Assembly (NCBI GenBank): GCA_903837345.1
Contig: CAILUG010000046.1
Coordinates: 1-64,000 of the forward strand
DNA length: 64,000 nt
Source: an uncultured Gammaproteobacteria bacterium
GTDB taxonomy: Bacteria; Pseudomonadota; Gammaproteobacteria; Pseudomonadales; Pseudohongiellaceae
Direction: 5' to 3'
Below are positions 18,819 through 33,676 of this stretch, piece after piece. A model generated the notes under the pieces. The model saw nothing but the letters and a program-made list of their open reading frames with translations, was not told the origin of the DNA and ran no database searches. Position 1 is the first letter of the stretch. Each line of letters begins with the position of its first letter. Made by a program: the position numbers and the translations under genes.

Positions 18819-20141
18819 TCACAGCTTTGCCGGCGACCGCGCCGGCACATTGCCGCCCTGTTTCAGCCACACGAGCGCGACGAAGGCCAGCATGGAGCCG
18901 GTGCCCATGATCAGCGACAGTATGGGCAGTTGCGTCCCGGTTTGCAGCAGGAAGCCGGCAAGGATCGGTGACAACGCCGAACCGCCCCGGCCGACACCGA
19001 TGGCGAAGCCGGTGCCGGAGCCGCGCACGTGGGTCGGGTATACCTGAGCCAATAGCGCGTACATGCCGACGATGCCGGAATTGATGAAGTAGCCGGCGAT
19101 GCCGACCAGGGCCGACAATACGGCCAGATTGGCCGGCGTCTGGCCGAACAGGATGGTGGCCAACCAGGAACCCACGAAGAAGAACAGCGTCAGTTTTTTT
19201 ACGTCATAAAACTTGCTCAGCCAGCCGAAGGTCAGACAACCGAGTGCGCCGCCGACGCTGGCCCATGTCAACACGCCTCCGGCAGCGGAGGCCGAAAAAC
19301 CCAGATCGACCACCAGTTTCGGCACCCACTTGAGAATGTAGTAGAACGTAATCATGTGCAGAAAGTAGCCGGCAGTGACGATCAGCGTGATCGGGAGCAG
19401 AGCCTTGCTGAAAATGTCCAACCACGCCGTGCCTTTTTCCTCTTTGTGCGCATCCGGCAGCACCGTCGTCGTGGCCTGGCCCAACCTTGTCATGATGTTG
19501 TTGACGCGGTTGAGCGCATCGATGGGCCGTTTGCGCACCAGCCATTGCACCGATTCCGGCATGATGACGAGCACCGGCGGGATCAGCAGCGCCGTCATCG
19601 CAGTGCCGAAGTAGAACACATAGCGCCAGTCGTGGATTTTCAGCAACTGCGTCACCACCAGGCCGCCGATTACTCCGCCACACGGATAGCCGACCGCCAT
19701 CAGCGCGATGGCCAGCGGGCGGTTGCGGCTGTTGGCGAATTCGGCAGCCTGGGTATTGGTCACGGCCAGCATGCCGCCGATGCCGAGACCGGTGACAAGG
19801 CGCCAGGCCGAGAACGTTATGACGTCATGAGTGGTTGTCACCATCAGCATGCCGGCTGTCATAAGTACAAGGCAGGCAAGGATGACCGGACGGCGGCCGA
19901 TGGAATCGGCCAAGCCACCCAGCACGACCGAGCCGACGGCCATCCCCAGCACTTCTATCGACAGGATGACGCCTAGCCCCCCCATCGTCGTATGCCATTC
20001 GGCGGCAATGCCTGGTGAGGCGAAACTTATCGCCATCACGTCGAAGCCGTCGAGGGCATTGAGCGCCACTGTCAGCATTACCACCACCCATTGCAGGCGG
20101 GTCATGAGGGCGGTGTCGAGCGTCTGACGCGGGTCGTTCAT
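18819..20141 (-). CDS. MFS transporter of the aromatic acid:H+ symporter type
   Basis: Inner-membrane importer with about 12 hydrophobic segments in 440 residues. The N-terminal DGFDVMAISFASPGIAAEW and the loop GGLADSIGRRPVI (the MFS loop 2-3 signature) resemble the AAHS family, which takes up compounds such as 4-hydroxybenzoate, protocatechuate or vanillate. ATG at 20141 has an AGGGG site. It converges on gap with a 12-nt gap and diverges from the amidohydrolase gene; the shared intergenic region holds an ATTCC-N8-GGAAT site. This context suggests uptake of the substrate of the neighbouring catabolic enzymes. Confidence 0.85.
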   Translation of the reverse strand: MNDPRQTLDTALMTRLQWVVVMLTVALNALDGFDVMAISFASPGIAAEWHTTMGGLGVILSIEVLGMAVGSVVLGGLADSIGRRPVILACLVLMTAGMLMVTTTHDVITFSAWRLVTGLGIGGMLAVTNTQAAEFANSRNRPLAIALMAVGYPCGGVIGGLVVTQLLKIHDWRYVFYFGTAMTALLIPPVLVIMPESVQWLVRKRPIDALNRVNNIMTRLGQATTTVLPDAHKEEKGTAWLDIFSKALLPITLIVTAGYFLHMITFYYILKWVPKLVVDLGFSASAAGGVLTWASVGGALGCLTFGWLSKFYDVKKLTLFFFVGSWLATILFGQTPANLAVLSALVGIAGYFINSGIVGMYALLAQVYPTHVRGSGTGFAIGVGRGGSALSPILAGFLLQTGTQLPILSLIMGTGSMLAFVALVWLKQGGNVPARSPAKL

Positions 20142-20185
20142 GGCAGCCCCTGAGTTTGATTGTCGTTGTGACCGGTGTTCGCAGA

Positions 20186-20221
20186 GTGTACACGAACCAA
20201 TTAATTCCCATGATAAGGAAT
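20186..20221. promoter_or_regulatory. Operator-like inverted repeats between MFS and amidohydrolase genes
   Basis: ATTCC at 20204-20208 and GGAAT at 20217-20221 are separated by exactly 8 nt. The same motif with the same 8-nt spacing occurs at 24252-24269 in front of the next operon. An 8-bp palindrome GTGTACAC lies at 20186-20193. The arrangement suggests one regulator, probably the nearby TetR protein, controlling both sites. Confidence 0.5.
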
Positions 20222-20283
20222 AAATATTCTCACTCAAAAGAAATTCTGCTATATATCCCCGCCTGCCGGAATGGAGTGGGGCA

Positions 20284-20388
20284 ATGAAAACAAAAAAATC
20301 GCATCATGCTGCGGCCACGGACAACGAACCTGGCCGGCTCTACAAGATGATGCTCGATGGCAACCAGCGAGGTCTCCGGCATGTGTAA
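20284..20388 (+). CDS. Possible 34-residue leader peptide or small protein
   Basis: Open frame MKTKKSHHAAATDNEPGRLY... ending RGLRHV, with GGAG eight bases before its ATG. It ends inside the start of the amidohydrolase gene: the two frames overlap by 8 nt, so translation of the short frame could deliver ribosomes to the next start. It has no signal peptide and contains adjacent histidines. It may be a coupled leader, or an old N-terminus separated by a frame change. Homologues in related genomes would decide. Confidence 0.4.
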   Translation: MKTKKSHHAAATDNEPGRLYKMMLDGNQRGLRHV

Positions 20389-21439
20389 CTGTCCGCTGCA
20401 CCCGCGCTCACCGTTGGCATCGCGGCCATGGTCGCGTCGCCATTTGCTCGGCGCGCTGTCCGCCACGGCGCTGCTGCCGCTGTTGGCAGGCGCGCAGGAG
20501 CGCGCCGCGGCGACCGGCGCCAGCGGCATTATCGACGTACATGCCCACTTCCAGCCGCCGGCGATTCGTGCACTCAACCTGCCTGGGCCGATGAACGCGT
20601 GGACCCTGCAACGCCAGCTCGACGACATGGATCAGGCCGGCGTCAGTCGCGCCATGTTGTCCATCACCACGCCAGGGGTTCCGCTGACAGGCACGCAGGC
20701 GGCGAAAATCGCGCGTGAATCGAACGAATATGCCGCCTCGCTCGCGCGCGATCACGGCAACCGCTTCGGCTTCTTCACCGCGGTTCCCATGGACGATCTT
20801 GATGCCGCGTTGAAGGAAATCGCCTACGGCTTCGACACGCTCGGCGCCCATGGTGTCGGACTCTTCACCAGTTATGACGGCAAATGGCTCGGTGATCCCC
20901 ATTTCGATCCCGTGTTTGCCGAACTCGAGCGGCGCCGCAGCATTGTCTACGTACATCCCACCACAGCAGCTTGTTGCACGCGGCTGATTGCCGAGCTGGC
21001 CGACACGCTGATCGAATATGGCACCGATACCACACGTGCCATTGCCAGCTATGTATACCGGGGCGCTGCGCTGCGTTATCCGAATGTGCGCATGATCTGG
21101 AGTCATTCCGGCGGCACCATGCCGTTTTTGATCGAGCGTTTCGATGGCGCCGACCGCACATCGGCAGCACAGGGACACAAGGTGGCAAGTTTCCGCGAAC
21201 AGATCGCCCGTTGCTATTTCGACATCGCGCAGGCTTCCAACGCAGTGGCGACCACTGCGCTGCGCGCGGTGGTGCCGATGCAGAAGATCGTCTTCGGCAC
21301 CGATTACCCGTTTCGCACATCGGTCGAGCATGTGAACAGCCTGCATGCCGCCGGCGTATTCAATCCACAAGAATTGGAAGCGCTGTTCCACGGCAACGTG
21401 GAGCAGGGCATGCCGGAACTGTTGCGGCTGCATCGCTGA
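20381..21439 (+). CDS. Exported amidohydrolase-2 family (ACMSD-like) enzyme
   Basis: Metal-dependent hydrolase/decarboxylase fold related to aminocarboxymuconate semialdehyde decarboxylase and resorcylate-type decarboxylases, enzymes acting on aromatic acids. Of 352 residues, the N-terminus contains SRRHLLGALSATALLPLLAG, a twin-arginine-type export signal (RR at 19-20). The barrel starts with IDVHAHFQP (His54, His56), then YVHPT, IWSHSGGTMPFL and FGTDYPF with the late Asp. ATG at 20381 has GAGG eight bases upstream and is preferred over 20357. Family members are normally cytoplasmic, so Tat export of a folded metalloenzyme is notable. Confidence 0.82.
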   Translation: MCNCPLHPRSPLASRPWSRRHLLGALSATALLPLLAGAQERAAATGASGIIDVHAHFQPPAIRALNLPGPMNAWTLQRQLDDMDQAGVSRAMLSITTPGVPLTGTQAAKIARESNEYAASLARDHGNRFGFFTAVPMDDLDAALKEIAYGFDTLGAHGVGLFTSYDGKWLGDPHFDPVFAELERRRSIVYVHPTTAACCTRLIAELADTLIEYGTDTTRAIASYVYRGAALRYPNVRMIWSHSGGTMPFLIERFDGADRTSAAQGHKVASFREQIARCYFDIAQASNAVATTALRAVVPMQKIVFGTDYPFRTSVEHVNSLHAAGVFNPQELEALFHGNVEQGMPELLRLHR

Positions 21440-21482
21440 GGCGTCGCTGCAACGCAATCATTGTCCAACAGGAGCTCTAGCC

Positions 21483-23387
21483 ATGTTTTCCCGACTGCAG
21501 AAACCCCGATTTCCGGTCACGCTGACCTGGTCAGCCCCGGCCGTGGCACTGCTCGGCATCGTCATGGTCTGCAACGCCAGCGCGCAGAAAGACGTGATGC
21601 TGATGAACCGCATCGGACCTTCGACGATGGAAATTTTCGTGGCCAACGCCGATGGCAGCGATGAACATCCGCTGCTGGCGAACGCGCCAGGCCTGAACTA
21701 CGACGCCAGCTTTGCCGCGGACGGGCAATGGATCGTATTTACCTCCGAGCGCGATCCGGAAGGCCCGGGGCAAGCAGATATCTGGCGTGTCCGGCCTGAT
21801 GGCAGCGGCCTCGAACGCCTGACTACGTCTACGGCGATGGATGATGCCGGCATGTTGTCCCCGGACGGCAAGCGACTGGCCTATGTCTCCACCAAGGGTG
21901 GCGCGCGCACCGCCAATATCTGGATCAAGGATCTGCCCAGCGGCAAGGAAACCAATCTCACCGGCGATGGCGACAGCAAGCCCAAGCCGACCATGAACGG
22001 CAATTTCCGCCCGGCCTGGTCGCCGGATGGCCAATGGATCGCGTTCACGTCGGATCGCGGCGAAAAATGGATCGGTGCTGAAGGTGGCGCGGGTGCCGGC
22101 CACTCGCATCCGACCAGCCTCTACATCGTGCATCCCGACGGCAGCGGTCTGAAACGACTGACGTCCACCACGCCGGAGTCTGCCTTCGGCTCGCCGCAGT
22201 GGTCGGCTGACGGCAGCAAAATACTGGCGTACGAAATTCCAACTCGGGATACGTTTGGTGCGCGCATGTGGGGCTTCGGTATTGCCATGCTGAACTCCAC
22301 GTCGCAGATCGTGGAGATCAACGTGGCCACTGGTGAAAAAACCGCATTGAGCAGCGGCTCTGCGCTGAAAACCAATCCGCACTACCTGCCGGGTGGCAAG
22401 ACTGCCTGGCTGATCAAGGCCACGCCGATGAATGGACCCGAACCAGGCATCGTCTATGCCGACGGTTCACGCGGCCCCAAGGGGCTGGTGCGCAACCCGT
22501 CATGGTCGCCCGATGGCAAACGCGTGGTGTATTACCGCTTCGGTGCGGTGAACAGACCGCAAAACACCCGGCTCTACAGCTGGAACCAGGATTATGAATA
22601 CCGCTACACCGATGTGTTCCAGGCCGTATGTCCCGCCAACGGCAGGATGGCGCTGACCGATCTTGATTTTCCGTTTGGCAACACCAATGCGTCGATCAGC
22701 GTGATGGACCGCAACGGCGGCAACCGCAGCAAGGTATTCCAGCGCCAGGACGGCGCGGCGCTGATGGCCACCTGGTCGCCCGATTGCCAGTGGATCGCGT
22801 TCGGGTTCGGCGTTTTCTTCGGCGGCCGCGGTTTTGCGCCTGCCAACGTGTTCATGGTTAAGGCCGACGGTTCCGAATCGAAGCAGGTCACGCAAAGCAA
22901 GGTGAACGCCGGCTTCCCGGCCTGGTCACCGGACGGCAAGACGCTTGTGTACCGCCTGTGGGGCACTCCGGAAACCGCCGAGACACGCGGGCTGCGCGCG
23001 CTGAATCTCGCTGACAATTCGGTCAAGGTGCTCACCACGGAGTGGGACAACTTCCCGTTCTTCTCGCCGCAGGGCGACAGCATCGTGTTCACGCGCCGCA
23101 TGCCCGATGCCGATTTCGAAGTCTTCACGATGAAGCCTGATGGCAGCGACCTGAAAAGGCTGACCACGACCGCCGGTGCCGACGCCCACGCCACCTGGTC
23201 GGCGGACGGCAAGGAAATCTGGTTCGAGAGTTCCAGGACCGGGTTCAAGGATGAAGCCGCGTTGTATGACATTTCACCGCAACCGTACGCCCAGGTGTTC
23301 CTGATGAATCGCGACGGCAGCAACGTGCGCCAGCTGACCGACAGCAAATGGGAAGATTCGATGGGCATGTTCATCAAGCGCAAATGA
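21483..23387 (+). CDS. Exported TolB-like beta-propeller (PD40 repeats)
   Basis: A 634-residue protein with a signal region ending near MVCNASAQ and many WD40-like PD40 repeats of the form W(S/A)PDG..IAF or MKPDGSDLKRLT, filling almost the whole chain. Such propellers bind peptides or act as scaffolds in the periplasm (TolB type) or occur in peptidases, but no catalytic C-terminal domain is present here. AGGAG precedes the ATG. It follows the amidohydrolase by 43 nt and is probably co-transcribed; a role in substrate binding or processing is only inferred. Confidence 0.8.
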   Translation: MFSRLQKPRFPVTLTWSAPAVALLGIVMVCNASAQKDVMLMNRIGPSTMEIFVANADGSDEHPLLANAPGLNYDASFAADGQWIVFTSERDPEGPGQADIWRVRPDGSGLERLTTSTAMDDAGMLSPDGKRLAYVSTKGGARTANIWIKDLPSGKETNLTGDGDSKPKPTMNGNFRPAWSPDGQWIAFTSDRGEKWIGAEGGAGAGHSHPTSLYIVHPDGSGLKRLTSTTPESAFGSPQWSADGSKILAYEIPTRDTFGARMWGFGIAMLNSTSQIVEINVATGEKTALSSGSALKTNPHYLPGGKTAWLIKATPMNGPEPGIVYADGSRGPKGLVRNPSWSPDGKRVVYYRFGAVNRPQNTRLYSWNQDYEYRYTDVFQAVCPANGRMALTDLDFPFGNTNASISVMDRNGGNRSKVFQRQDGAALMATWSPDCQWIAFGFGVFFGGRGFAPANVFMVKADGSESKQVTQSKVNAGFPAWSPDGKTLVYRLWGTPETAETRGLRALNLADNSVKVLTTEWDNFPFFSPQGDSIVFTRRMPDADFEVFTMKPDGSDLKRLTTTAGADAHATWSADGKEIWFESSRTGFKDEAALYDISPQPYAQVFLMNRDGSNVRQLTDSKWEDSMGMFIKRK

Positions 23388-23443
23388 CGGCTTGAAAAGT
23401 GGGGCAGCGTGATGATTCTGGGCAAGGGCTGGCGCGGGATTCC

Positions 23444-24124
23444 CTAGTCGATACGTGAGCGCAGGCCATCGAGCATAAGACTGACGATGAACTCCTTGTA
23501 TTTCTCTGCCAGCTGTTCCTTGCCCATGCGGGCAGGGGCCAGCGGCAGGATCATTGATTGGGCCGCGGCATAGAACTCGCACAGCCCGATGATGGCGACA
23601 TGCATGAACAAAGGAACGGGCGAACTGCGTTCTTCGTCCGCGTCCGGATGAAGCATCTCGGCATAGAAACGCACGATCGCCGCGTTCATCTCGCGTACGC
23701 GCTTGCGGATTGCCGGATCCTCGGACTCGGCGCATTCGTCGATCATCAGGCGCTGCATGGAGCGTACGCGTCGCGAGAAATCGAACATGTTGGCGATGTG
23801 CACGGAGAGACGGTCGGTATTGTTTGTTGCAGGCAACGGGTGGGTGTTGATCCAGTTGGCGAGGATGTATTCGATCACGGCCAACAGCAGTTCCGCACGG
23901 TGGCTGAAGTAGTAGCGCACCAGTGCCGGATCGACGCCGGCCTTTTTGGCGATCTGCAGGTTGGTGACACGGTGGGGCGGCAAAGTGTCCAGCAACTTGC
24001 TGGCGGCGATGACGATGGTTTCCTTGCCAACGGTGCCATGCGTGGCGCGGGGTCGGCCGCGTTGGCGGAGTGGTTTGGAGGGACGGGGGGAACGGGTACT
24101 GCTGGTACGGGATTTGGCTTTCAT
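23444..24124 (-). CDS. TetR/AcrR-family transcriptional regulator
   Basis: A 226-residue one-domain-plus-ligand-pocket repressor. A basic proline/serine-rich tail (about 1-30) precedes the helix-turn-helix: VTNLQIAKKAGVDPALVRYYFSHRAELL is the TetR recognition-helix region, around residues 53-80. The C-terminal part is helical and unconserved, as expected for a ligand pocket. It diverges from the 24290 operon, with an ATTCC-N8-GGAAT site in the shared 165-nt gap, and an identical-type site lies in front of the amidohydrolase and transporter. It is the obvious candidate regulator of the cluster. Confidence 0.88.
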   Translation of the reverse strand: MKAKSRTSSTRSPRPSKPLRQRGRPRATHGTVGKETIVIAASKLLDTLPPHRVTNLQIAKKAGVDPALVRYYFSHRAELLLAVIEYILANWINTHPLPATNNTDRLSVHIANMFDFSRRVRSMQRLMIDECAESEDPAIRKRVREMNAAIVRFYAEMLHPDADEERSSPVPLFMHVAIIGLCEFYAAAQSMILPLAPARMGKEQLAEKYKEFIVSLMLDGLRSRID

Positions 24125-24251
24125 TCCGCAATTGATAGCACATATCCGCGCCCGGTAGAACAGCCAACCGAGGTCGGTGCTGCGGCAACTCCGTGAGGTG
24201 GATCGCTGCCGGCAATGCCACGCGCTGGTGCCGGAATCTGGAATGAGATAA

Positions 24252-24269
24252 ATTCCTATAGTTGGGAAT
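24252..24269. promoter_or_regulatory. Operator-like ATTCC-N8-GGAAT site before the 24290 operon
   Basis: ATTCC at 24252-24256 and GGAAT at 24265-24269, spacer 8 nt, 20 nt before the start codon of the first gene. It matches the site at 20204-20221 in arms and spacing, and the reverse complement of its inner part resembles that site further. Extra GGAAT half-sites occur just upstream (24232-24244). A repressor bound here would block the promoter. Confidence 0.5.
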
Positions 24270-24289
24270 AATAGAAAGAGGTCAGGAAA

Positions 24290-25063
24290 ATGAGACTAAA
24301 ACCACACTTGCCGCTACTGTTCGTCATGCTGGCAGCGACACTGCCTGGCAGCGCCGCCACGATGGACAACCCGCTGTATGGCGATCCCGCGCATCCGAAT
24401 TTTTCAGGCATGTGGAATCCTGAATTCGTCTATTTGGGTCCACCGCCAGGCTCCACTCCCGGTGCGGCACCGGCATTCCCGCCGCGGCCGCCCGCGGGTG
24501 CCGGCGGCGCCGCGCCGCCACCGTTCGCGCCCCCTCCAGTGCCGGAGCTGACCGGACCCTATGCCAAACGTTTCGCCGCCTGGCAGAAAGCATTCGAGAG
24601 CGGCACCCAGGAGCCTGATACTGTCACACGTTGCCTCGCCTTCGGCATCGCGCGCTTCGGCACCATGCCGGTGGAAATCATCCAGACGCCAGGTCAAATC
24701 ACGATGAACCTTGGCGTGATCCACGATATCCGGCGCATTTTCCTCGACGGCATCGGTCACACCACGGGTGCCGATCCCAGCTTCAACGGCGATTCCGTGG
24801 GCCATTGGGAAGGTGACACGCTCGTGGTCGAAACCAACAACATCCGTGCCGCCACGCTCGATCGCAACGGCGTGCCGTACTCAGACAAATTGACCGTGGT
24901 GGAGCGGATCCACTTGATCAATCCGAAGCGTCTCGAAATCGAAATGACGCTGACGGATCCGGAAGCTTTCAAGGCTCCCTTCACCATCAAACGCGCCTAT
25001 GTTCCCATGCCGAAAGGCAGTCGCTTCGAGGAGTATGTCTGTGAAAACAACCAGGATATCTGA
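24290..25063 (+). CDS. Exported protein of unknown function
   Basis: A 257-residue secreted protein: signal peptide MRLKPHLPLLFVMLAATLPGSA, then DPAHPNFSGMWNPEF, a proline/alanine/glycine-rich linker (about 53-85), and a conserved-looking domain with GHWEGDTLVVETNNI and IDRNG-like turns. I recall the GHWEGDTLVVET segment from exported proteins of Proteobacteria and Acidobacteria that occur beside DUF6152 genes; no function is known to me. It is the first gene of a three-gene plus-strand operon and overlaps the next gene by 29 nt. Confidence 0.75.
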   Translation: MRLKPHLPLLFVMLAATLPGSAATMDNPLYGDPAHPNFSGMWNPEFVYLGPPPGSTPGAAPAFPPRPPAGAGGAAPPPFAPPPVPELTGPYAKRFAAWQKAFESGTQEPDTVTRCLAFGIARFGTMPVEIIQTPGQITMNLGVIHDIRRIFLDGIGHTTGADPSFNGDSVGHWEGDTLVVETNNIRAATLDRNGVPYSDKLTVVERIHLINPKRLEIEMTLTDPEAFKAPFTIKRAYVPMPKGSRFEEYVCENNQDI

Positions 25064-25493
25064 TATCGCAATCAACAAGCTGCGATGCTCGCGCGCGATC
25101 GCCGTTGCAAGCGGTGCCTGCGCCCTGCTGTGGACAGTGGCTGCGTTGGCCCACCATTCGTTCGCCGCCTTCGATGCCGCCATGAACGAAACGCAGAAGG
25201 GCGTGGTCAAGGAGGTACGATGGACCAATCCACACATCTGGGTATTCCTGACTGTGGAAAAGGATGGCAAGGAGGTCGTCTACGGCTACGAAGGCGCGGC
25301 AATTGCAGTTCTGAAACGCGTCGGCTGGCTCAGCGACAGTGTGAAGACCGGCGATGTCGTCACCGTGCACGGTCATCCCTACAAGGATGGCAGGCCCGGA
25401 GGCAGCATCGAATATGTGGAGCTTGCCGACGGCCACAAGCTGGGCACCGGCGATGCCATTCCGGGGGCCTTGGTCGTGCCGACAGGAAATTGA
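25035..25493 (+). CDS. DUF6152-type exported protein
   Basis: A 152-residue protein with a signal-like segment (IAVASGACALLWTVAALA) followed at once by HHSFAAFD, the hallmark start of the mature DUF6152 family, then VKEVRWTNPHIWVFL and TVHGHPYKDGRPGGSIEYVELADG. It is a small periplasmic beta-rich protein of unknown function. The histidines directly after the cleavage site could bind metal, which is speculation. ATG at 25035 is inside the end of the preceding gene with GAGG just upstream; the downstream FAH-fold gene follows by 43 nt. Confidence 0.78.
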   Translation: MSVKTTRISDIAINKLRCSRAIAVASGACALLWTVAALAHHSFAAFDAAMNETQKGVVKEVRWTNPHIWVFLTVEKDGKEVVYGYEGAAIAVLKRVGWLSDSVKTGDVVTVHGHPYKDGRPGGSIEYVELADGHKLGTGDAIPGALVVPTGN

Positions 25494-25536
25494 ACGAGCC
25501 CATTCATCAACAATCAATAATCAATCAGGAGGGGTC

Positions 25537-26670
25537 ATGTCCAGAAGCAGATTCAACAAGGGGTGGCGTACAGCGGTGGCGACGGGTGTGTTGGCGGTAT
25601 CCGCCCACGGCATGGCCGCGGATGCGCCGGCGTTCAAACTGGGGACATTCCGGGACGGTGGCGACACCTGGCTTGGACTTGTGCTGCGTGATGCCGACGT
25701 CGTGAATATCAGCGCTGCCAACACCGCCTACGAGCGTGCCAATCCAGCTGCCACCCGCATCGCCATTCCGGCCGATATGAAGCAACTCATTGCGCGCTAT
25801 GAGACTGACCTGGGACCGCGCCTGCGTGCCATTGCTGTTTATGCGACCGCCAATCCTGCCGGCTTTGTCCATAAAACCACCCAATTGAAGATACTGCCGC
25901 CGGTGATGCCTGCGTTGATCCTCAATGCTGGCGCGAATTATCCGGATCATGCCGCCGGCATCGTTGCGCAAGGCGCACGTGCCGCGGCTGCCGCTGGTGG
26001 GGCCGCGCCGCCTGCCGCTGGCCCGCCACGCGCTGGCGCCCAGTCGATGCCAGGCTACTGGGAACGCGCACCCGGTGACGTGCGTCCCGACAATCCATAC
26101 CTGTTCCTGAAATCGCCGACGGCGGTGGTTGGCGCCGATGACGACGTGGTCATTCCAAAGGGTCGCGAGCAAATCGACTGGGAATGCGAGTTTGCCGTGG
26201 TAATTGGCAAGCCAGCCAAAAACGTTTCGACAGAAGCGGCCGCCAACTATGTGTTCGGCTACTCGATTGAATTCGACGTCTCCGACCGTGCCGGGCGCGG
26301 CGACCGCAAAATGGGCGGTGGTCCGGACTGGCTGGTCCAGAAGAACCACGACACTTTTGCGCCGATAGGCCCCTACATCGTGCCCAAGGAATTCCTGCCA
26401 CGTCCGACGGATACGCGGCACTACTTCACGCTCAACGGCGAGATCAAACAGGATTCCAATACCAGCCGCATGGAATACAGCCTGTGGGAAATGGTGTCGT
26501 TCGCTTCCAACATGATGACGCTGAATCCGGGTGACATGCTCTCGCTGGGCACCCCTTCGGGTACCAATATCGAAAGTGCCAATCCGCGCTGGATGAAAGC
26601 AGGCGATGTCGGCGTTTGCGTGGTGGAGGGAATCGGCGAACAGCACCACAAGATCGTGGCACAACCCTGA
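25537..26670 (+). CDS. Exported fumarylacetoacetate-hydrolase-fold enzyme
   Basis: A 377-residue protein. The C-terminal two thirds have the FAH catalytic domain: IDWECEFAVVIG with the metal-binding E-x-E, FGYSIEFDVSDR with the metal-binding Asp, and SLGTPSGT with the late glycine-rich turn. Relatives hydrolyse or decarboxylate acyl-pyruvates from meta-cleavage of aromatics. Unusual features are an N-terminal signal peptide (VATGVLAVSAHGMAADA), since most FAH proteins are cytoplasmic, and an Ala/Gly/Pro-rich insertion at about residues 148-170. A strong AGGAGGGG site precedes the ATG. It is the last gene of the operon. Confidence 0.85.
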   Translation: MSRSRFNKGWRTAVATGVLAVSAHGMAADAPAFKLGTFRDGGDTWLGLVLRDADVVNISAANTAYERANPAATRIAIPADMKQLIARYETDLGPRLRAIAVYATANPAGFVHKTTQLKILPPVMPALILNAGANYPDHAAGIVAQGARAAAAAGGAAPPAAGPPRAGAQSMPGYWERAPGDVRPDNPYLFLKSPTAVVGADDDVVIPKGREQIDWECEFAVVIGKPAKNVSTEAAANYVFGYSIEFDVSDRAGRGDRKMGGGPDWLVQKNHDTFAPIGPYIVPKEFLPRPTDTRHYFTLNGEIKQDSNTSRMEYSLWEMVSFASNMMTLNPGDMLSLGTPSGTNIESANPRWMKAGDVGVCVVEGIGEQHHKIVAQP

Positions 26671-26690
26671 TCCGTAATCTTCATGGGGAA

Positions 26691-26720
26691 GCCCGGCTGC
26701 ACCGGATGATGCAGCCGGGC
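26691..26720. terminator. Stem-loop between convergent genes
   Basis: An 11-bp perfect stem (GCCCGGCTGCA at 26691-26701 with its complement at 26710-26720) and 8-nt loop between the stops of the FAH-fold gene and the PQQ dehydrogenase. A T tract is lacking on the plus side, so it may be a weak or bidirectional terminator. Confidence 0.5.
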
Positions 26721-26728
26721 GGGCTAAC

Positions 26729-28912
26729 TTACTGATGAAGTGCAGGCTGTGCCGGCGCTGTAGTTGGAGCAGGTGCAGGAGCTGGCGCAGCAGCAGCCGG
26801 CGCAGCGCCCTGTGCGCGACCACCAGCTGGACCACCCGGGCCGAACTGCGGCGGTGGCGGATTGGTCTTCAGGTCGTTGGCCAGCGTCACCACATAAGCG
26901 CGGATCGACTCAGCCTCTTCCGGCTTCAGCATTTTCTTGAACGACACCATGCCGTTGTTCTGCAGAATGCCGTCGATCACGATGGCCTTGAACAGCTCAG
27001 GGCTGTTCAGTGCCGCCGCATAACGAATATCGGGGAACAAGCTGCTGACCGGACGGCCGTTGGCGACACCGTGGCAACTGGCGCAGTGCTCAGTGAAATG
27101 TTTCTCGCCATTGGCCAGCAGGGCAGCGTTACCATAGTTGGCTGGTGGGTTGAGGACGGGTGGTGTATAGGTCACTGTCGGTGGCAGTTCGGCCTTGCCG
27201 CCGATTTTGTAAACAAGCAGACGTGCATAGTTGGGCGCCCAGTAACCGCCGCGTCCAGCCTGGCCGGCCACAACCGCAACGTACTGTTCACCATCCACGG
27301 AATAACTGGCGGAACCGCCAGCGATGCCGGCCTGGGCATCGGTGGTCCACACCTTCTCGCCGGTATCAGCGCGGAAGGCCGAGAAATTGTTTTGGCCAGT
27401 ACCTTGGAACACCAGGTTGCCCGCTGTTGTCATGATGCCGGAATTGCCCGATCCATCGCTCGATTTCCAGGCTTCCTTCTGGTTTATCGGATCCCACGCA
27501 GTCAGGTAGGCGCCGCCACCTTCAAGTTTCGGAGCCGGCATGTCAGGTTTCTTTTGGAGGTTGATCGACAGCAGCTGGTTGCCCATCTTGGCGCCGGCTT
27601 CGGCCACCATGCCGTAACTGGCGTAGCGGGTGGGGATGTACATCAAGCCGGTATTGGGGTTGAACGCCATCGGATTCCACACGTGGGTCTGGAATGGCAC
27701 GATGAACCAGCCCTTGCCGGTCTTGCCGAAGTTGGAATCCGGATTAAGGATGGGTTTCCAGTTGTTGTCCTTGTCAAAGCCGGTCAGCCAGTTGCCGGTC
27801 GGCACGAACATCTGCGCGCTGACCACCTTGCCGGTGGCCGCTTCAATGACATAGAACACACCGTCTTTCGGTGCCTGCATCACCACGTGGGTTTTCTTGC
27901 CGTTGATCATCAGGTCGGCAGTGGCCAGTGGCGAGGTGTTGTCGAAGTCAAAGCTGTCCATCGGCACGGCCTGGTAATGCCAGCGGTATTTGCCGGTCTT
28001 GGCTTCCACTGCGACGATGGAAGATGTGAACAGGTTGTCGCCACCGCCGGGTGAGCGCACTTCTGCCGGCCACGGCGCACCGTTACCTGTGCCGAAGATG
28101 ACCAGGTCGGTTTCAGGGTCGTAGAGGATGCCGTCCCAGGGCGTGCCGCCACCACCGGTCTTCCACCACTCGCCGCTCCAGGTCTTGGCGGCCATGGCCA
28201 ACTCGGGCTGTTCGAAGCCCAGTTCAGGATTGCCGGGCACTGCCCACCAGCGCCACAGCTCCTTGCCGTTATCGACATCATAGGCAGCCATGTAACCGCG
28301 CTGATGGAACTCGGAACCGGCTTCGCCGATGAAGATGCGGCCATCCGCTATGCGCGGTGCGCCGGTGATGGACAATTGTTTGGTGGGATCGGTGACCTGC
28401 CTTTCCCAGACTTTCTTGCCGGATTTGGCGTTGATGGCGACCAGACGGCCATCCAGCGTGCCCAGGATCACCTTGTCTTTCCACACTGCTACGCCGCGAT
28501 TGACGATGCCGCAGCACAGATTGACGGCCCAGGCGCCTGCCACCTGTGGATCGTATTTCCACAACTGCTTGCCGGTCTTGGCGTCGAAGGCGTAGACCTT
28601 GCTCCACGGTGAAGTGATATAGATGGTGCCATCGACCACCACTGGTGTGGTTTCATAGCTGCCACCCTTTTCGGCCAGATCGCCGAACCAGGCCAGACCC
28701 AGCTGCGAGATATTGTCAGGTGTAATCTGTTTGAGCGGGCTGAAGTGCTGCTCGCTGTAGTCGCGGCCGTAGCTCATCCACTGGCCGGCGTTGGCAGGGG
28801 TGGTCGATGCCTTGATTCGGGCGGTATCGACCTGGGCATTGCTCTGGCCGGCAAGGCTGGCAAACACCAGCAGGGTTGCGGCTGCCAGGGCCCTGATAAT
28901 CGGTTTACGCAT
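26729..28912 (-). CDS. PQQ-dependent alcohol dehydrogenase with C-terminal cytochrome c
   Basis: Second periplasmic quinohaemoprotein dehydrogenase, 727 residues. Signal peptide MRKPIIRALAAATLLVFASL...QSNAQ; PQQ propeller with the vicinal Cys pair in VNLCCGIVNRGVAVW; DSFDFDNTSP at the catalytic Asp region; haem motif CASCH in HCASCHGVANG. It ends in an Ala/Pro-rich tail of about 30 residues that is absent from the other copy. GGGGAG lies eight bases before the ATG at 28912. It converges on the FAH-fold operon. Proximity to aromatic-type enzymes suggests oxidation of an alcohol side chain, but the substrate is not visible. Confidence 0.9.
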   Translation of the reverse strand: MRKPIIRALAAATLLVFASLAGQSNAQVDTARIKASTTPANAGQWMSYGRDYSEQHFSPLKQITPDNISQLGLAWFGDLAEKGGSYETTPVVVDGTIYITSPWSKVYAFDAKTGKQLWKYDPQVAGAWAVNLCCGIVNRGVAVWKDKVILGTLDGRLVAINAKSGKKVWERQVTDPTKQLSITGAPRIADGRIFIGEAGSEFHQRGYMAAYDVDNGKELWRWWAVPGNPELGFEQPELAMAAKTWSGEWWKTGGGGTPWDGILYDPETDLVIFGTGNGAPWPAEVRSPGGGDNLFTSSIVAVEAKTGKYRWHYQAVPMDSFDFDNTSPLATADLMINGKKTHVVMQAPKDGVFYVIEAATGKVVSAQMFVPTGNWLTGFDKDNNWKPILNPDSNFGKTGKGWFIVPFQTHVWNPMAFNPNTGLMYIPTRYASYGMVAEAGAKMGNQLLSINLQKKPDMPAPKLEGGGAYLTAWDPINQKEAWKSSDGSGNSGIMTTAGNLVFQGTGQNNFSAFRADTGEKVWTTDAQAGIAGGSASYSVDGEQYVAVVAGQAGRGGYWAPNYARLLVYKIGGKAELPPTVTYTPPVLNPPANYGNAALLANGEKHFTEHCASCHGVANGRPVSSLFPDIRYAAALNSPELFKAIVIDGILQNNGMVSFKKMLKPEEAESIRAYVVTLANDLKTNPPPPQFGPGGPAGGRAQGAAPAAAAPAPAPAPTTAPAQPALHQ

Positions 28913-31603: not shown

Positions 31604-33096
31604 ATGACAAGGAATTTGCCGCGCTGGCTGCCGCCGGTTACAACCGTATTCCGGTAGTAAGACAAGTGCTCGCTGATCTCGAAACTCCGCTTGGCATTTA
31701 CCTGAAGCTGGCGCAGGGCCAGTACAGCTATTTCCTCGAATCGATGCAGGGCGGCGAAAAATGGGGTCGCTATTCATTCATTGGTTTGCCGGCCAGCACT
31801 GTCCTGATTGCGACGCGCGATGAAACTTCGCCAGGTTGCCGCGCCAATATCGAAGTGAAAACCGAAGGCCGCACCGTTGAAAGCAGCAACACCGATGATC
31901 CGTTTGCGTTCATCACCGCATTCCAGGCGCGTTATCGCATCCCCGAGTTGCCGGAACTGCCGCGCTTCAACGGCGGGCTGGTGGGCTATTTCAGTTACGA
32001 CACCGTGCGCTATGTCGAACACCGGATTGCCGGCACTGCGCCCGCAGACAATGTCCACACGCCCGACATTGTGCTGATGGTGTCGGAAGAAGTGGCAGTG
32101 TTCGACAATCTGCGCAACAGTCTCACGCTGATGGTCTATGCAGATCCGGCGCAGCCGCATGCATTTGCCAGGGCAGAGCAGCGACTGGATGCATTGATGA
32201 AGCAGCTGGAACAAGCACCGAAAGCGCCGGCCTTGAGTAGTGGACGCAGTGTCAGTGAGGCTGATTTCGTATCGAGTTTCGGCCAGGCCGCCTATGAAAA
32301 TGCAGTTGGCAAAATCAAGGAATACATTGCTGCCGGCGATGTGATGCAAGTGGTATTGGCGCAGCGCATGAGCCTGCCGTACAGCGGCGCGCCGCTGAAT
32401 GTCTATCGCGCGCTGCGGCAGCTGAATCCGTCACCGTACATGGTGTTCATGGATTTCGGTGATTTCCACATTGTCAGTGCCTCGCCCGAAATTCTCGCGC
32501 GGGTTGAAGATGGTCATATCACGGTACGGCCGCTGGCCGGTACCCGCAAGCGCGGCAAGACCCAGGAAGAAGATCTGGCACTGGAAGAGGAATTGCTGGC
32601 CGACGCCAAGGAAATTGCCGAACATCTCATGCTGATTGATCTGAGCCGTAATGACGCCGGTCGCGTATCAAGGATCGGCAGCGTGCATGTGCCCAAGCAG
32701 ATGTTTGTCGAGCGCTATTCGCATGTGATGCACATTGCCTCTACCGTGGAAAGCACGCTGGCTGAAGACAAAAGTGCGCTGGATGTGCTGAAAGCCACAC
32801 TGCCGGTCGGCACGCTGAGCGGCGCACCGAAAGTCAGGGCCATGGAAATCATCGATGAATACGAACCGGTGCGACGTGGCATCTATGGTGGCGCGATGGG
32901 CTATCTGGCCTGGAACGGCAACATGGACATGGCGATTGCCATCCGTACTGCAGTGATCAAGGACAACACGCTGTATATCCAGGCTGGTGCCGGTGTTGTA
33001 GCCGATTCAGTGCCGCGTTCGGAGTGGGAAGAAACCCTGAACAAGGCGCGTGCAATGTTTCATGCCGTCAAACTGGCGGAGTCAGGGCTCAAGTAA
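31600..33096 (+). CDS. trpE: Anthranilate synthase component I
   Basis: Converts chorismate to anthranilate using ammonia from TrpG, the first step of tryptophan synthesis. The 498-residue protein has the N-terminal feedback-binding region ([17 protein letters not shown]), and the chorismate-binding domain with [53 protein letters not shown] and IRTAV...[11 protein letters not shown]. No truncation or disruption is seen. It is coupled to rpe upstream (ATGA overlap) and to trpG downstream (TAATG). Confidence 0.97.
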
Positions 33097-33676
33097 TGCT
33101 GTTGATGATCGACAACTACGATTCCTTCACCTACAACCTCGTGCAGTATTTCGGCGAGCTGGGTGCCGACATGCGCGTGTTCCGCAATGACGAACTCACC
33201 ATTGCCGGCATCGAGCAACTGGCGCCGTCGCATATCGTGATTTCTCCCGGTCCCTGCACGCCACGCGAGGCTGGTATTTCTGTTCCCGCCATCAAGCACT
33301 TCGCAGGTAAAATTCCCTGTTGGGAGTTTGTCTCGGCCATCAAAGTATTGGTGAGGCCTTTGGTGGCGATGTCATTCGGGCCAAACGTGTGATGCACGGC
33401 AAGATTTCCGCCATTCATCATGCAGGCGAGGGCGTTTTTGCCGGCCTTAACAATCCCTTCAATGCCACGCGGTATCATTCACTGGTAATTGCGCAGGATT
33501 CCCTGCCTGACTGTCTGGAAGTGACCGCCTGGACCCAGAACGCGGATGGCAGCATGGAGGAAATCATGGGGGTGCGGCACAAGACGCTGCCGGTTGAAGG
33601 CGTGCAGTTTCACCCTGAGTCCATTCTCACCGAACATGGGCATCAGTTGTTGCAGAATTTTCTGGACCGCTACTGA
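33096..33676 (+). pseudogene. trpG: Anthranilate synthase component II, one-base frameshift
   Basis: Glutamine amidotransferase partner of TrpE. The first frame reads [20 protein letters not shown]...[11 protein letters not shown]...FAGKIP, then leaves the family sequence. The second frame, shifted by one base, continues [15 protein letters not shown] with the catalytic Cys, and ends with [16 protein letters not shown]. Loss of one C in the CCC run at 33315-33317 explains it: adding a C restores [11 protein letters not shown]. Both halves are otherwise well conserved, so this is either a very recent mutation, a sequencing error in a short homopolymer, or recoding. The start overlaps the trpE stop by one base. 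Confidence 0.88.

Follow-up and report, generated by a model that had tools for sequence, protein, structure and literature searches.

A candidate TetR-controlled catabolic island with predicted exported enzymes and a multiplied W-DUF6152 protein pair in a Pseudohongiellaceae genome

The described systems closest to the locus considered here are meta-cleavage catabolic clusters with a cytoplasmic amidohydrolase, a FAH-fold enzyme and a major facilitator superfamily (MFS) transporter. For example, a plasmid of Paraburkholderia sp. D15 (L184) carries adjacent amidohydrolase, FAH-family and MFS genes together with a local regulator. We analyzed a similar cluster at positions 18819-28912 of a 64,000 nt window (the whole stretch of DNA under study, contig CAILUG010000046.1), which belongs to the draft genome (63 contigs, 3.26 Mb) of an uncultured gammaproteobacterium of the family Pseudohongiellaceae. 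The two clusters share this gene arrangement, and their amidohydrolases are 38% identical; in contrast, the L184 cluster has genes for a VOC dioxygenase, a flavin reductase and an aldehyde dehydrogenase, whereas the window cluster has no ring-cleavage gene. Moreover, the L184 FAH lacks a signal, while the enzymes of the window cluster are all predicted to be exported.

We assign a probability of roughly 55% to the reading of positions 18819-26670 as a single catabolic island under TetR control, whose enzymes are exported and in which the protein W and a DUF6152 protein serve as an accessory module. A first-pass annotation had named eight genes here, and a profile search of the window proteins finds all eight, with their families, at 18819-28912. 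That annotation listed, but did not single out, the W-DUF6152 pair, which is the most unusual element of the cluster. The results computed here cover gene content, export signals, a palindrome and a cassette that are both conserved, the number of copies, fusions between the partners and their co-evolution. The features are as follows.

18819-20141, minus strand: MFS transporter of the aromatic acid:H+ symport (AAHS) type (MFS_1, 146.9 bits; best NCBIfam model TIGR00895, 312.3 bits, below the AAHS cut-off of 418.55)
20203-20221, no strand: candidate TetR operator 1, AATTCC-CATGATAA-GGAAT, between MFS and amidohydrolase
20357-21439, plus strand: Amidohydro_2/ACMSD-like enzyme with Tat-like export (PF04909, 95.5 bits)
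20429-20452, plus strand: twin-arginine-like motif SRRHLLG (W25-S26-R27-R28) of the amidohydrolase signal (sequence and signal rule)
21483-23387, plus strand: PD40/TolB-like beta-propeller, predicted exported by the signal rule (PD40, 180.8 bits)
23444-24124, minus strand: TetR-family regulator (PF00440, 24.7 bits, marginal against a cut-off of 24)
24251-24269, no strand: candidate TetR operator 2, AATTCC-TATAGTTG-GGAAT, preceding the W-DUF6152-FAH operon
24290-25063, plus strand: W, predicted exported, with a beta-barrel domain in its AlphaFold2 (AF2) model; no match in Pfam or NCBIfam
25041-25493, plus strand: DUF6152 protein with an NPH motif and a predicted OB-fold, its mature N-terminus predicted to be HHSF (PF19649, 91.9 bits, cut-off 27)
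25537-26670, plus strand: FAH-fold hydrolase with Sec-like signal (PF01557, FAA_hydrolase, 182.4 bits)
26729-28912, minus strand: type II quinohaemoprotein alcohol dehydrogenase dependent on pyrroloquinoline quinone (PQQ), with a C-terminal cytochrome c, predicted exported (TIGR03075, 524.7 bits, cut-off 480.05)

Regulation and export of the cluster

The window has exactly two copies of the palindrome ATTCC-N8-GGAAT, one in the gap between the MFS and amidohydrolase genes and one directly before W, and they lie in the two divergent promoters of the cluster. Across the 3.26 Mb genome, its longer form, AATTCCN8GGAAT, has six exact copies, of which the cluster holds two; the reversed control has none. 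It is found again at position 2675 of L124, a 5.6 kb contig of the metagenome-assembled genome (MAG) Jr-28jun17-52, ahead of W in the same operon. The simplest reading is that the palindrome is a TetR operator joining three transcription units and, because it is shared and conserved, the cluster genes are probably co-regulated. Altogether, the pattern suggests a single TetR regulon comprising seven genes, with the PQQ dehydrogenase outside it. In particular, the promoter of the dehydrogenase has no copy of the palindrome and its gene is not beside FAH in L124; we therefore rejected it as a regulon member, and it is probably a neighboring, separate transcription unit. The first-pass annotation had counted it within the cluster.

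Relatives preserve part of this arrangement. In L124, the order TolB-like propeller, TetR (minus strand), W, DUF6152 and FAH is kept, with identities of 72, 57, 73, 60 and 67%, respectively, and an MFS gene directly follows FAH. On contig C79 of another genome (G010), the gene order W, DUF6152, FAH recurs with an FAH that is only distantly related. An alternative explanation is a mosaic, in which a solitary exported FAH gene, a W-DUF6152 module and a pair of amidohydrolase and transporter genes became neighbors and have no common pathway. It would fit the solitary position of the exported FAH gene, which most genomes of the host's bacterial family have at a single locus on its own, the lack of a close relative of the amidohydrolase within the genus, the different transporter in L124 and the GC content of the island (0.606, versus 0.57 in the flanks); it would not account for an identical palindrome ahead of both halves, for the retention of five ordered genes in L124 or for the recurrence of the W-DUF6152-FAH order with a distant FAH in G010. 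We consider such a mosaic unlikely. Because the exported FAH is mostly a lone gene across the family, its export alone does not imply the pathway proposed below.

Export is predicted for most of the cluster. By a simple signal-peptide rule, six of the eight proteins (amidohydrolase, propeller, W, DUF6152, FAH and PQQ dehydrogenase) have an export signal, and no other gene called between 10 and 36.7 kb is flagged. The N-terminus of the amidohydrolase carries SRRHLLG and then a hydrophobic stretch, ahead of its conserved metal ligands; one plasmid homologue (L186) has the Tat-like leader MIDRRNLLAG, and another (L185) has no leader. For FAH, a signal peptide lies directly ahead of the start of homology in all homologues that align at full length, which come from the host's bacterial family, Acidobacteria, Woeseiaceae and another gammaproteobacterial MAG. 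Further, a phylogenetic tree places the exported FAHs in a single clade of 32 rows (support 98/97), with the window FAH inside and the short homologues outside, and all 32 members have signal peptides; their retention across the clade implies that export arose long ago in this FAH subfamily. Our literature search on exported FAH found nothing relevant.

If the pathway were instead cytoplasmic, the N-terminal signals would be annotation artefacts and translation would begin downstream. Downstream starts are present and a codon-based gene caller favored them, but the uniform signals of the FAH clade, spanning distant phyla, argue that its export is not a start-site artefact. Likewise, 72 of the 78 W and DUF6152 genes are flagged, and the -3/-1 rule is obeyed ahead of the His-His pair in 93 of 93 DUF6152 proteins. 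A cytoplasmic pathway is thus very improbable and the cluster enzymes are very probably exported, which upholds both the Tat-like signal on the amidohydrolase and the Sec-like signal on FAH reported by the first-pass annotation.

Enzymes and the proposed periplasmic pathway

The FAH contains the residues that define its superfamily, the NYxxH dyad region (N135-Y136 and H139) and the Glu-x-Glu...Asp ligands (E217, E219 and D248), and also keeps K270; N135, H139, K193, E217, E219 and D248 are conserved in 38-40 of 41 alignment rows. Its best NCBIfam equivalogs score 145 and 141 bits, far below their cut-offs of 500 and 276, and do not assign a specific activity. The amidohydrolase keeps the HxH, His, His, Asp ligand motif (H62, H64, H200, H250 and D316); its nearest solved structures are the metal-dependent hydrolase 2F6K, the 5-carboxyvanillate decarboxylase LigW and ACMSD, and it matches no NCBIfam equivalog. 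The MFS has a DGFD motif at residue 31. The propeller scores 182.8 bits against the TolB model TIGR02800; because this is under the equivalog cut-off of 343.15, it is not TolB itself. Breakdown of aromatic or ring-derived acids had been suggested for the cluster; since it has no ring-cleavage dioxygenase or monooxygenase gene, the aromatic label reflects family resemblance to relatives such as the L184 cluster.

With all cluster enzymes predicted to be extracytoplasmic, and with an MFS in the inner membrane whose type imports acids, periplasmic processing with product import is plausible. In the proposed mechanism, TetR would bind ATTCC-N8-GGAAT in the two divergent promoter regions and switch three units together, namely the MFS, the amidohydrolase with the TolB-like propeller, and W-DUF6152-FAH. 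An inducer would relieve TetR, and the amidohydrolase, FAH and the module would then be exported, the amidohydrolase folded with its metal through the Tat route and FAH through the Sec route. The amidohydrolase and FAH would decarboxylate or hydrolyse an organic acid in the periplasm, and the MFS would import the smaller product. The W-DUF6152 pair would have an accessory role adapted to the individual locus, beside different and mostly exported enzymes; W may bind the local ligand as a disulfide-bonded barrel, and the OB-fold DUF6152 may bind a transition metal through its His-His end.

Several observations weigh against this mechanism. The palindrome was spotted by eye first and counted afterwards; the genome count and the conservation are independent checks. 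The signal rule is a simple, home-made one, not SignalP. The transporter in L124 is not the same family member as the window MFS, and no amidohydrolase is visible in L124 because the 5.6 kb contig ends. Finally, the cluster has no substrate-defining enzyme, and the closest characterized relatives of its amidohydrolase and FAH are cytoplasmic, with several differing activities. If the mechanism is true, a large share of the catabolic reactions of a bacterium with a 3.3 Mb genome takes place outside the cytoplasm, at loci marked by an uncharacterized protein pair.

The W-DUF6152 pair

In Bacteroidota, SusC and SusD form one exported pair per catabolic locus, with dozens of divergent copies per genome. 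The W-DUF6152 pair may resemble SusC/SusD in this multi-copy, locus-marking habit, a likeness that we treat as a lead; in contrast, SusC/SusD consists of an outer-membrane porin and its lid, whereas both W and DUF6152 are of small size and predicted to be soluble. The genome has 40 DUF6152 copies and 47 W homologues. An adjacent W accompanies 26 of the 29 unfused DUF6152 genes (25 on the same strand), and a further 10 DUF6152 are fused to W in a single reading frame, yielding about 36 adjacent or fused pairs, including the window pair. Paralogue identity is low, with medians of 30% and 23% for the two partners, while the W and DUF6152 distance matrices are correlated (r = 0.57, 0 of 5000 permutations; r = 0.62 for the unfused pairs alone). 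By these distances, the partners co-evolve, and the low identity combined with the correlation indicates that W and DUF6152 diversified together, at an early date.

Within the host's own genus, genomes have from 18 to at least 54 DUF6152 copies, and at least 37 where completeness is at least 99%. Group g2 has 45 to at least 54 and group g3 has 18-25, while the other genera of the family mostly have 1-4, with a maximum of 12. DUF6152 appears in 8 of 369 genomes in a survey of the class and in 42 of 399 in a survey of the phylum, mostly as one copy and at most eight outside the host's bacterial family; the count for the host genome is a lower bound in the phylum survey. The contrast within one family, from mostly 1-4 to between 37 and at least 54 copies in well-assembled genomes, makes the driver of the expansion addressable by comparing genera. 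Plasmids of sphingomonads also carry W-DUF6152 pairs, accompanied by TetR or TonB genes; on one of Sphingobium sp. TomTYG65 (L161), two tandem, unannotated pairs lie beside monooxygenase, arylsulfatase and TonB receptor genes. Twin genes for DUF6644 membrane proteins are found near pairs at three loci of this genome (L035, L040 and L060) and on a Novosphingobium humi plasmid (L159). Our literature search found no paper naming DUF6152 and none naming DUF6644.

Proteins with histidine as their mature first residue are natural metal chelators. A predicted AxA|HH cleavage site is present in 93 of 97 distinct DUF6152 proteins, 88 of these 93 then contain NPH, and the window protein matches this pattern with ALA-HHS. 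The predicted cleavage implies that mature DUF6152 would begin with His-His; in the family alignment, both of these histidines, the NPH histidine (100%) and one glutamate (98%) are conserved. Because of this predicted mature end, and because N-terminal-histidine proteins chelate metal, DUF6152 may bind a transition metal and is a metalloprotein candidate. We also considered that DUF6152 binds lanthanides to serve PQQ dehydrogenases with a D-x-D motif, which was dropped as histidines favor Cu, Ni or Zn.

Two DUF families, DUF4198 and DUF6702, were found by their N-terminal histidine in a 2025 signal-strapping study (PMC12537917). Like DUF6152, they are exported, functionally uncharacterized families with histidine as the mature first residue and further conserved histidines. 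The N-terminal histidine is kept in 65-79% of those proteins, compared to AxA|HH in 93 of 97 DUF6152 proteins; further, the proposed fold of DUF6702 is an Ig-like beta-sandwich, whereas DUF6152 has a predicted OB-fold and is paired with W. The main text of that study does not mention PF19649.

The AF2 model of a natural W-DUF6152 fusion (pLDDT 81.6) combines an OB-fold DUF6152 domain with a beta-barrel W domain, and its Foldseek matches are fatty-acid- or retinoid-binding barrels (best E = 7e-5, rmsd 6-7 Å) and OB-folds. Against the proposed ligand-binding role, W alone (pLDDT 80.3) has no Foldseek match in the PDB at E ≤ 0.001, so that a ligand-binding barrel is a weak and tentative description; a metal site formed jointly by the His-His and NPH motifs is a hypothesis. 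A profile search of W and DUF6152 against solved structures returned a chance-level match alone (E = 0.98). Cysteines C115 and C251 of W are invariant, as expected for a periplasmic disulfide.

These folds also bear on whether W and DUF6152 catalyze reactions themselves, for instance as an isomerase, lactonase or oxidase pair for the substrates of each locus, rather than serve as accessory binding proteins. One pair per locus with varied partners, the existence of fusions and the strongly conserved His, Glu and Asp positions would suit an enzyme pair; however, in fold the pair is closest to a binding-type barrel and an OB-fold, the strictly conserved positions of W are mostly Cys, Gly and Pro, and neither family has an enzyme match. 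We find this enzymatic role doubtful. Somewhat better favored, though still tentative and short of an even chance, is the broader proposal that DUF6152 proteins are unrecognized exported OB-fold metalloproteins with a His-His end, each paired with or fused to W, and that the pair has multiplied in one bacterial family to dozens of divergent copies, each forming the locus-specific core of a catabolic cluster outside the cytoplasm.

Neighbors of the module and PQQ dehydrogenases

Using our own gene callers, on which all neighbor statistics are built, 99 of 214 genes located at most three genes from W or DUF6152 are predicted to be exported, compared to 75 of 314 in 20 control regions (P = 1.1e-7). 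Of 32 PQQ dehydrogenases, 14 have a module no more than 5 kb away, versus 14% expected (P = 5e-5). Also recurring beside the module are ankyrin, DUF1552 and DUF1592-type sets and SnoaL-like, gluconolactonase, sorbosone dehydrogenase and esterase genes. In five loci of this genome (G000), W or DUF6152 genes adjoin a set made up of ankyrin-repeat, DUF1552 and DUF1592-type (PSD/PSCyt) genes, on contigs C12, C23, C37, C38 and C41 (L050, L058/L045, L062, L064 and L031, respectively), and a literature search found no paper joining DUF1552 or DUF1592 with PQQ.

The cluster is flanked by housekeeping genes, with PEP carboxylase and two GAPDH-like genes to the left and rpe and trpE to the right. In another genus of the family, an exported FAH of a different clade likewise adjoins rpe-trpE-trpG (L131, contig C27 of G012). 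The window trpG (33096-33676) seems split into two frames, 33096-33392 and 33320-33676, whereas in G012 it is a single continuous gene of 201 residues; the split appears to be a frameshift or an assembly error.

The window PQQ dehydrogenase has the marks of a type II enzyme beyond its TIGR03075 score, namely vicinal cysteines C133-C134 and a CASCH (CxxCH) motif at 610. It shares the PQQ propeller, cytochrome c and vicinal cysteine pair with the type II quinohaemoprotein alcohol dehydrogenases 1KV9 (E = 8e-176), 1YIQ and 1KB0. They have DFT or DYT where the window enzyme has D322-F-D324, which aligns to the DFD of PedH (6ZCV). DFD is taken as a sign of lanthanide use in PQQ alcohol dehydrogenases (PMC11996626), and by this motif the window enzyme is a candidate member of the lanthanide-dependent group. 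The genome has about 32 PQQ dehydrogenase loci, and most of the cytochrome-c-fused enzymes near modules (the window and L031-L065) share a W/F-D-x-D motif with lanthanide-dependent PedH.

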